Below are positions 532 to 4,062 of a stretch of 64,000 bases of DNA, piece after piece (the stretch's first letter is position 1; each line of letters starts with the position of its first letter). Location: the NCBI RefSeq assembly GCF_900187945.1, contig NZ_FYEH01000014.1:1-64000 (forward strand). The letters are read 5' to 3'. The position numbers and the translations under genes are program-made. The notes below the pieces were generated by a model. It saw nothing but the letters and a program-made list of their open reading frames with translations, was not told where the DNA came from and did not search any database. The stretch comes from Arboricoccus pini. GTDB lineage: Bacteria; Pseudomonadota; Alphaproteobacteria; Geminicoccales; Geminicoccaceae.

Positions 532-2118
532 CTACCTCTCCATCGCTTCCCCGAGCGTTCGCAGGCCTGGGCGGCGGGCTTGGACGAGGACGGCGATGTT
601 GCCGGGTTTGTGTTGGTTCTTGAGCATTTTCATATGGGCGCGGGGGATGTCGCGCCAGGCGAGGACTTCGGCGAGGCAGGGGTCGATCTGGCGGTTGTGG
701 ACGAAGCGGTTGGCGGAGGCTGCCTGTTTGAGGTTGGCGAAGTGACTGCCCTGGATGCGTTTTTGTCGCATCCAGAGGTGGCGGGCGTCGAGGGTGAGTT
801 TGTAGCCGGTGGTTCCGGCGCAGAGTACGACCATGCCGCCTCGGCGGCAGACGAGGGTGGAGACGGGGAAGGTGGAGGCGCCCGGGTGTTCGAAGACGAT
901 GTCCGGATCGTTGCCTTCGCCGGTGATGGTCCAGATGGCGCCATGGAAGCGGCGGGCTTCCTCTTGCCAGTGGGCGAAGTTGGCGTCGGCGTGGTGGTCG
1001 GCGTCGCTGGGGGCGGGGAGTTCGCCCCAGCAATCGAAGTCGCGGCGATCGATAGTGCCTTTGGCGCCGAGGGACATGACGAAGTCGCGTTTGTCCTGGT
1101 CGGAGATGACGGCGATGGCGTTGGCGCCGGAGGCGGCGATGAGCTGGATGGCCATGGCGCCGAGGCCGCCGGCACCGCCCCAGACAAGGACATTGTCGCC
1201 GGGCTTCAAGGTGTGCGGGGGGTGGCCGAAGAGCATGCGGTAGGCGGTGGCCAGGGCCAGTACGTAGCAGCCGGATTCCTCCCAGGGGAGGTGGCGGGGG
1301 CGGCTCATGAGCTGGCGGGACTGGACCTTGCAAAATTGGGCGAACGATCCGTCGGGGGTTTCGTAGCCCCAGATGCGTTGGCTGGGCGAGTTCATGGGAT
1401 CGCCGCCGTTGCATTCCTCGTCGTCGCCGTCGTCCTGGCTGCAATGGACGACGACTTCGTCGCCGACGCGCCAGCGGGTGACGCGGGGGCCGGCGGCCCA
1501 GACGATGCCGGCGGCATCGGAACCGGCGATATGGTAGCTGCCCTTATGGATATCGAAGACGGAATGAGGGTAGCCCAGGGCTGCCCAGACGCCGTTCTGA
1601 TCGACGCCGGCCGCCATGACCATGACCAGTACCTCGTCGCCGTCGAGGGCGGGGGTCGGGACGATTTCCTGCTGCATGGCGACGATGGGCTCGCCGTGCC
1701 GTTCCTTGCGGATGACCCAGGCGTACATGTTGGCCGGGACGTGGCCGAGCGGCGGGATTTCGCCGACCTCGTAGAGATCCTTGCCGCCGTCGATGACGGG
1801 GCGCGGTGTGGGGGTCGGGGGGTAACGGAGGGGGATGACGTTGGTGTCGGGCCGTGGCGCAGCGAGGTGGAGGATGGCCCGGCCGTCGGTTCCGGTGGCG
1901 GCATCCTCGATGGCGTTGTCGAAGAAGTCGGCGGGGGTGAGGGCGATGCCTTCCCGTCTGGCGAGGGTCAAGATGGCGGCTTGCCGGCGGGTGGGGATGG
2001 CGCCTCGGCGGACCCAGCCGGAGACGGCGGTCTGCCAGATGCCGAGTTGCTCGGCCAGGCGCTGCTGCGATCCGAACTTGGCGATGATGCGCGCGACGCC
2101 ATCCCTGCCCATCGACAC
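532..2118 (-). CDS. ccr: crotonyl-CoA carboxylase/reductase with N-terminal helix-turn-helix domain
   Basis: This enzyme carries out NADPH-dependent reductive carboxylation of crotonyl-CoA to ethylmalonyl-CoA, the key step of the ethylmalonyl-CoA pathway. Residues from about 113 to 528 align from memory along the whole length of alphaproteobacterial Ccr: KDLYEVGE start, YHIAGSDA, VHCSQDDGDDEECNGGDP, IWGYETPDGSFAQF, an MDR nucleotide fold (WGGAGGLGAMAIQL) and the ending QHKPGNIAVLVQ. Ccr proteins are normally about 430 residues; here an extra 112 residues come first. Residues 9-68 look like a small XRE/YdaS-like helix-turn-helix (SQQRLAEQLG, turn, TAVSGWVRRG). I found no in-frame ATG, GTG or TTG between residues 51 and 130, so the enzyme cannot start on its own near its usual N-terminus. 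The fusion therefore appears real. The gene is divergent from a cation transporter. Confidence 0.93.
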   Translation of the reverse strand: MSMGRDGVARIIAKFGSQQRLAEQLGIWQTAVSGWVRRGAIPTRRQAAILTLARREGIALTPADFFDNAIEDAATGTDGRAILHLAAPRPDTNVIPLRYPPTPTPRPVIDGGKDLYEVGEIPPLGHVPANMYAWVIRKERHGEPIVAMQQEIVPTPALDGDEVLVMVMAAGVDQNGVWAALGYPHSVFDIHKGSYHIAGSDAAGIVWAAGPRVTRWRVGDEVVVHCSQDDGDDEECNGGDPMNSPSQRIWGYETPDGSFAQFCKVQSRQLMSRPRHLPWEESGCYVLALATAYRMLFGHPPHTLKPGDNVLVWGGAGGLGAMAIQLIAASGANAIAVISDQDKRDFVMSLGAKGTIDRRDFDCWGELPAPSDADHHADANFAHWQEEARRFHGAIWTITGEGNDPDIVFEHPGASTFPVSTLVCRRGGMVVLCAGTTGYKLTLDARHLWMRQKRIQGSHFANLKQAASANRFVHNRQIDPCLAEVLAWRDIPRAHMKMLKNQHKPGNIAVLVQARRPGLRTLGEAMER

Positions 2119-2187
2119 CTGCCTCTGATCTACTTGGTTGTTTTGTCGACCCAGGCGCTACGAGGAAAGCTGTTGCGCCATCGGGCA

Positions 2188-2215
2188 TCAGTACGACAGC
2201 CCGGTTTCTGGTCAA
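2188..2215 (-). promoter_or_regulatory. possible ccr promoter
   Basis: On the minus strand a TTGACC box (2215-2210) is followed after 16 nt by TACTGA (2193-2188), about 70 bp upstream of the ccr start. It fits a sigma70-like promoter loosely and was found by eye only. Confidence 0.25.
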
Positions 2216-2398
2216 GTGTTGAATTTGGCGGATCGAACATCTTTGGTGCTGGAAGCTTGTGTGACAGCCGATGTCTTAGTCGTCGCTAATCATGTTAGTA
2301 GATCCGGACTTGGCTTGTCTTATGAAACGCCAGGCGGCATGAGGTCGTCCGCCCGGTCCGGGCAGTCATTCGTTGGGCGGGCAAGGATTGGGCATGTC

Positions 2399-3321: not shown

Positions 3322-4062
3322 TCAGGGGTCCAGCGTATGGCGGGTGAAGGCCTCGATATAATCGAGCAGGCGGCCGGTAGCCGCCATCGCGCGCTTAGGA
3401 TCGTTTTGCGCGATGGCTTCGGCCATGTCGGCGTGGAGGTGGGCGGCCAAGGGAAGGTCGCCGGCGTTTTTGTAGTATTTAAACCAGAACCGCCGGCAGA
3501 GCGGCGTTAGGAGGCCCATTGACCGAACGGCGAACTCGTTGCGGGCCGTGTCGGCCAGCAACTGGTTGAAGCGTCGGTCGAGGCGCATGAAACCCCGATC
3601 GTCGTTGGCGGCCGCGGCTTCGCGCATCCGCGTGGCGATCTCCGTGAACGCCCGGCGCTCCTCCGCATTGGCTCGCGACGCGGCCAGGCGGGCTATCAGT
3701 CCTTCGACCACGCGACGCGTCTCGAGAAGCTGGAGTTGAGTTTCGATCTTGATGTCGGAGACGAGGATGCCGCGCCTGGGAATGACCAACAGCAGCCCGT
3801 CCCGCACCAGGCGCTGCACCGCTTCACGGATCGGCGTCCGGCCGATCTCGAGGCGCCTGCCCAAAGCCTGCTCGGTCAGCGTGGTGCCGGGCGGCAGTTC
3901 CAGCGTGGTTATCAGTTCCTCGAGTATGCGGTAGGCACGATCGGTGAGCGTGACATCGCCTGCCTCCTCATGGGCCAGGAATTGCCGCTCCTCGGCGAGG
4001 CCGGGATCTCCAAAAGGGCTCCGGCAGGTGGCAATCCGTTTAAACGGGGCAGGGCTATTCAT
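3322..4062 (-). CDS. GntR-family regulator, FadR/FCD type
   Basis: A 246-residue transcription regulator. Residues about 40-105 form the GntR winged helix (TLTEQALGRRLEIGRTPIREA, then a wing with VIPRRGILV). Residues 110-240 form the helical FCD ligand-binding domain, with ETRRVVEGLIARLAA, MRLDRRFNQLLA and AHLHADMAEAI, which includes the conserved D and H metal/effector positions. The first 35 residues are not typical and a start further in is possible. It is convergent with the CDF gene. The effector is unknown; FCD regulators usually control transport or catabolism of organic acids. Confidence 0.88.
   Translation of the reverse strand: MNSPAPFKRIATCRSPFGDPGLAEERQFLAHEEAGDVTLTDRAYRILEELITTLELPPGTTLTEQALGRRLEIGRTPIREAVQRLVRDGLLLVIPRRGILVSDIKIETQLQLLETRRVVEGLIARLAASRANAEERRAFTEIATRMREAAAANDDRGFMRLDRRFNQLLADTARNEFAVRSMGLLTPLCRRFWFKYYKNAGDLPLAAHLHADMAEAIAQNDPKRAMAATGRLLDYIEAFTRHTLDP

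Follow-up and report, generated by a model that had tools for sequence, protein, structure and literature searches.

A Cro-like helix-turn-helix domain fused to crotonyl-CoA carboxylase/reductase: a candidate trigger enzyme

Some enzymes, PutA, BirA and NadR among them, can also bind DNA through a part of their own chain and so double as regulators; they are known as trigger enzymes. The key reaction of the ethylmalonyl-CoA pathway is that of crotonyl-CoA carboxylase/reductase (Ccr), which fixes CO2 in growth on acetate; the enzyme is a fast carboxylase that has been used in synthetic CO2 fixation. The pathway has dedicated regulators, among them RamB/ScfR (PMC10370305) and, to judge from a title in the reference list of the same paper, CcrR; these act on the same pathway, but are separate proteins and not part of Ccr. 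Here we draw attention to a Ccr (HTH-Ccr) that is fused to a helix-turn-helix (HTH) domain. As in PutA, BirA and NadR, an enzyme and a DNA-binding domain are found in one chain, by sequence and predicted fold, although both the enzyme and the HTH differ from theirs and regulation by HTH-Ccr is only proposed. In the open-access literature (subscription papers and database annotations lay outside the search), we found no report of an HTH-Ccr fusion, no mention of the carph-isopro domain to which the HTH belongs, and no account of Ccr as a moonlighting or bifunctional transcriptional regulator. If the proposal is right, the amount or state of an enzyme would be tied directly to transcription, with no need for a separate sensor, and HTH-Ccr would be a testable example of a trigger enzyme built by gene fusion.

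The gene lies in a 64 000-nucleotide stretch of DNA (the window, at its full length), on the minus strand of which a 528-codon open reading frame spans positions 532..2118 without interruption. This open frame, together with profile matches to both parts, bears out the in-frame joining of HTH and Ccr described in an initial annotation of the sequence. The start codon proposed there, a GTG at 2116..2118 (minus strand), probably makes the protein two codons too long: the start in relatives aligns with residue 3 of the window frame, so the ATG at 2112-2110 is the better choice (the corresponding position in one relative, L016, is occupied by GTG rather than ATG). We thus place the coding sequence at 532..2112 (minus strand; 526 amino acids and stop), and a possible ribosome-binding site, GAGG, can be discerned by eye 9 nt before the ATG (2122..2125, minus strand). 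HTH-Ccr is the sole Ccr found in the window genome (G000, 99.3% complete), the next-best match being 32% identical and covering residues 111-365 only.

The Ccr domain (residues 113-527; 538..1782, minus strand) scores 564 bits against the crotonyl-CoA carboxylase/reductase equivalog TIGR01751 (cut-off 378.55) over residues 126-521, in agreement with the earlier view that a full-length Ccr stands behind the HTH. The whole catalytic part is shared with the Ccr structures 4gi2, 6na3 and 6owe (4gi2 aligns over residues 112-527, with 69% identity in the structural alignment), from which HTH-Ccr differs in having 110 extra residues that include the HTH. In KsCcr, the CO2 pocket consists of Asn81, Phe170, Glu171 and His365 (PMC10966969); counted on the alignment, these correspond to N175, Y252, E253 and H459 of the window protein. 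The Asn, Glu and His are therefore kept, and Phe170 is replaced by Tyr252, a Tyr being found in 4gi2 also. The possibility that the CO2-orienting Asn81 had been lost was entertained and rejected: the raw chain index of 6na3 would put D173 on position 81, but F170, E171 and H365 show that this index runs two ahead, so that Asn81 is equivalent to N175 and not to D173. Close to the pocket, two changes (N173D and Y174Q) occur in no other row among those listed from a 102-row alignment.

The N-terminal domain (residues 8-66 in the 528 numbering; 1921..2097, minus strand) is recognized as a Cro-like HTH by its match to the carph-isopro profile NF046037 (56.9 bits, cut-off 38, residues 8-61), which also matches all eight fused members of alignment A1, and by a fold model. 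The HTH claimed for the N-terminus thus holds on the strength of NF046037, while the scores against two Pfam families straddle the cut-offs: 29.7 for YdaS_toxin (PF15943; cut-off 30) and 29.5 for P22_Cro (PF14549; cut-off 30.2) with the whole protein, and 32.6 and 32.5, respectively, with residues 1-113 alone. Structure prediction, which had been recommended as a check, yielded a Cro-like fold, with pLDDT 91-97 over residues 1-60 for the isolated HTH (a full-chain model had a mean pLDDT of 63.7, its Ccr part being weak). When this HTH model was compared with the PDB using Foldseek, the top eight matches all involved Cro, as such or in a hybrid; N15 Cro bound to operator DNA was one of them, and P22 Cro was match number 10; E-values were 0.04-0.5, with none at or below 0.001, and probabilities 0.75-1.00. 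Since these E-values are weak, the kinship with Cro rests on sequence and fold together, the Cro 3bd1 having a sequence match to the HTH at E 0.00027. The HTH therefore resembles the Cro proteins of prophage Xfaso 1 (3bd1), N15 (2hin/6on0) and P22 (1rzs) in sequence and predicted fold, but those are stand-alone phage proteins whereas HTH-Ccr is a fusion.

Other fusions of the domain exist. In three other alphaproteobacterial genomes a carph-isopro HTH fronts proteins that match Mitofilin in Pfam (L148, L151, L166), and in L156 and L167 it lies ahead of an NAD(P)H-hydrate epimerase/dehydratase (YjeF). These resemble HTH-Ccr in that the same domain fronts an unrelated protein, but they differ from it in the partner protein and in the sequence of the recognition helix. 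The YjeF-type protein is a second enzyme fused to a carph-isopro domain; in all five loci the HTH lies near locus position 1500, and many further carph-isopro matches resemble the mitofilin-like fusions.

How widespread is the fusion? Relatives had been named as the place to look for homologues, and 23 of the 31 genomes searched of the window's family have it. With the HTH part alone as query, strong matches (E <=3.8e-25) were obtained in 23 of the 31; the match in G008 was weak (E 7.9e-6) and lay in a frame of its own, 126 aa long. The in-frame join was read directly in 22 genomes, the window included (that of G006 via locus L044), and G020 is fused by match coordinates. Of the others, G018 and G024 are without a Ccr match, no match at E 1e-60 was obtained in G029, G011 or G017, and G008, G009 and G025 have partial Ccrs only, the last two at a contig start. 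Among the 31, no genome was seen with a demonstrably unfused Ccr (in three it is partial). Ccr matches outside the family, in a set of 60 relatives, start at residue 96 or later. A collection scan found seven fused genes among 80 relatives retained out of at least 574, namely L038 (labelled Alphaproteobacteria), L039 (Bacterium HR40) and L040-L044 (Geminicoccaceae), and those relatives that have names are mostly Geminicoccaceae. A quick tree was made of 101 Ccr domains, of which 21 were fused (L044 was left out, its row having been shortened by masked letters). In it a branch with SH-aLRT 99 separates the fused rows from all others, and the fused Ccrs form one clade. The comparisons that follow use 22 fused genes, a count that excludes L038-L043, which duplicate genes of other loci in the set, and L027 and L037, which are truncated at contig ends. 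The fusion is old and family-wide rather than local. A neighbouring HTH gene from which the domain might have come was sought beside unfused ccr in loci L045-L117 and L030-L036, and no match was better than E 0.11.

The initial annotation suggested that the protein might be a trigger enzyme, and we would give about even chances to the idea that HTH-Ccr works in such a way, regulating its own promoter region. In its favour are a nearly invariant recognition helix, the predicted Cro-like fold and the presence of repeated half-sites at fused ccr genes; it is weakened by the occurrence of the same HTH on proteins that are not known as regulators.

The half-sites provide a candidate DNA target, which co-occurs with the fusion in comparisons between genomes. 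Two versions of the motif, YAACAC and the longer YAACACYT, were picked after inspecting the fused upstream regions and were counted in 400 bp upstream. YAACAC occurs at 54 sites in 22 of 22 fused loci (13 sites in 13 of 80 unfused loci), and YAACACYT at 31 sites in 18 of 22 (none in the 80); shuffled fused upstream sequences gave 4.8 and 0.5 sites, respectively. This choice after the fact, and the membership of the 22 genomes in a single family, mean that Fisher values for fused versus unfused loci overstate the contrast; unfused leaders are poorer in GC (0.52 versus 0.59 over 150 bp). In G020, which was not used for motif finding (its genus was represented in the motif set by G012), the intergenic stretch has five YAACAC, four of them YAACACYT. 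A divergent frame with an RxYAGxS motif lies upstream in 21 of 22 fused loci, the exception being the window. With the methylmalonyl-CoA mutase equivalog (cut-off 876) the product in L038 reaches 553 bits, and we take it, by motif and context, to be ethylmalonyl-CoA mutase (Ecm); the gene after ccr in L038 is presumed, on similar grounds, to encode methylsuccinyl-CoA dehydrogenase (Mcd), no NCBIfam model having matched it at E 1e-20.

An unlikely but credible alternative is that the HTH does bind DNA, but that YAACAC is the site of some other regulator of acetate metabolism, specific to the family, with HTH-Ccr acting elsewhere or having little regulatory effect. This would accord with the separateness of the known pathway regulators RamB (ScfR family) and CcrR, as they appear in PMC10370305 and its reference list, and since the half-sites follow clade and fusion alike, the effects of the two are inseparable here. 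On the other hand, RxYAGxS is found upstream in 32 unfused loci and is divergent in 31, and these 31 relatives, with the same divergent order of an Ecm-like gene and ccr, have YAACACYT in no case (YAACAC in seven). Counting against self-regulation by HTH-Ccr, strict dyads (GTGTTGN{2,7}CAACAC) were found at 19 places in 12 of the 31 family genomes (a reversed control gave 10 places), only three of the 19 being at ecm-ccr (in G001, G015 and G006). The dyads do not support a conserved wider regulon, as the 12 loci inspected away from ecm-ccr (excluding four in G004) were scattered and not evidently orthologous.

In the window, a single candidate half-site, CAACACTT, is recognized at ccr by comparison with relatives, 109 nt upstream of the ATG (2214..2221, minus strand), and is overlapped by TTGACC (2210..2215, minus strand), which by eye could be a -35 element. 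There are two copies in the 64 kb, 1.5 being expected by chance, and genome-wide the 8-mer occurs 122 times in G000, compared with 140 for a reversed control. No pathway gene was found as a second target in eight site-bearing stretches of G000 (100 of the 122 sites were listed). At L264 (G000:C22:44500-48800), two copies lie 144 bp apart (positions 1985 and 2129), downstream of a ParB-like gene.

How might a trigger enzyme of this kind operate? KsCcr is a dimer of dimers (PMC10966969). If HTH-Ccr is a similar tetramer, the four HTHs on their linkers could take hold of several half-sites whose number and spacing vary, and such a tetramer probably binds the ecm-ccr promoter region, to judge from the comparison of upstream sequences. 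Binding would modulate, and probably repress, ccr and the divergent ecm together, and its strength might be set by the amount of enzyme, or by an open or closed state reached via NADPH and acyl-CoA. In the window genome, where the partner genes were not found, HTH-Ccr would be left as an orphan whose own promoter has one half-site. The initial proposal that Ccr controls its own promoter or another gene of the pathway is therefore strengthened by the candidate half-sites upstream of ecm-ccr in relatives, but loses ground in G000, where neither Ecm nor Mcd was detected and much of the pathway supposedly under control is thus missing.

Conservation within the fused proteins bears on whether the domain binds DNA at all. 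The recognition helix (QTAVSGWVRR, residues 29-38; 2005..2034, minus strand) was placed from the model (helix 27-36 in the 526 numbering) and from its conservation, and is almost unchanged throughout the 22 fused genes, 12 of the 15 positions from residue 25 to 39 being invariant and three varying conservatively. The HTH has a median pairwise pN/pS of 0.32, Ccr one of 0.24 and the linker (residues 71-110) one of 0.97, with median amino-acid identities of 76, 82 and 21%, so the Cro-type domain is under purifying selection and the linker evolves freely. The latter (variable residues 70-110; 1789..1911, minus strand) is probably disordered, having a predicted pLDDT below 50. It is a little less credible than the preceding alternative that the HTH has lost DNA binding and serves in assembly or protein interaction. 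The Mitofilin and YjeF proteins fronted by carph-isopro domains are in keeping with this, and weaken the inference of a regulator from the domain alone, none of them being a known regulator. But it is the recognition helix that is best conserved, which in Cro-type domains packs little against the protein core, and half-sites co-occur with the fusion.

The window has no in-frame ATG, GTG or TTG in residues 51-130 (the nearest are a TTG at 50 and an ATG at 131), and the earlier claim that no separate Ccr can be made from near the usual N-terminus holds for this gene. It does not extend to 13 of the 22 fused genes (the window not among them), which have an in-frame ATG 21-28 codons before a conserved K-D-L-Y-E, close to the start of unfused Ccrs; since this is where Ccr ancestrally began, a separate short Ccr may be made in those 13 genomes. 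By eye, SD-like stretches precede the internal ATG in L019 and L044. The remaining nine, including the window, have no ATG in the internal start region, and among these a GTG lies 21-22 codons before K-D-L-Y-E in L013, L024 and L029, and an ATG seven codons before it in L013, L017, L021 and L028. The sequenced relatives present apparent evolutionary stages, with the internal start kept or lost and the pathway kept or lost.

The window copy is itself unusual. Its Ccr has 12 departures at columns at least 95% conserved in 102 rows, the most of any row (the next has nine), and the longest branch in the quick tree (0.58; median 0.12); in identity to the fused consensus its HTH core is the lowest of 22. 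Although a true methylmalonyl-CoA mutase (1131 bits) was found in G000, Ecm was not detected (26 of 31 family genomes have a match of at least 69% identity), nor was Mcd at E 1e-10 (matches in 25 of 31; G002 also lacks one, its contig ending soon after ccr), nor isocitrate lyase, for which 16 of 31 pass the Pfam cut-off; these absences are each based on one query and a 28-contig assembly. Divergence and missing partners would suit a reading confined to the window lineage, in which the gene is a declining relic or has changed its reaction, its regulatory role being gone. This is very improbable, given that the frame is open, that the protein retains the recognition helix as well as Asn, Glu and His in the CO2 pocket, and that the Ccr is third lowest of 22 in consensus identity and not the lowest. 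A fuller scenario, improbable as a whole though less so than the relic, would have a CO2-fixing enzyme regulate its own operon and, in many genera, a single gene give rise to HTH-bearing Ccr and, by way of an internal start, to HTH-less Ccr, the subunit mix tuning DNA binding; in the window lineage, with the start lost and the partners gone, the Ccr fold might serve mainly as an acyl-CoA/NADPH sensor, en route to a transcription factor. That the join arose by chance or through an assembly or sequencing error may be dismissed, as 22 other family genomes share the same in-frame join and nothing was found in favour of an artefact.

Several neighbouring observations may be added. In the position taken by the Ecm-like gene in relatives, the window has a gene for a cation efflux protein (PF01545; 2399-3289), divergent from HTH-ccr and followed by one for a GntR/FCD regulator (3322-4062). 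In G029, which has no Ccr or Mcd match, an Ecm-like mutase that shares 74% identity with the L038 protein lies beside a second mutase-like frame (L226). Isocitrate lyase is near full-length only in G018 (L242) and G024 (L241), the other passing genomes covering about 85-105 of 526 profile positions; these two have no Ccr match, as if the glyoxylate cycle had replaced the ethylmalonyl-CoA pathway.
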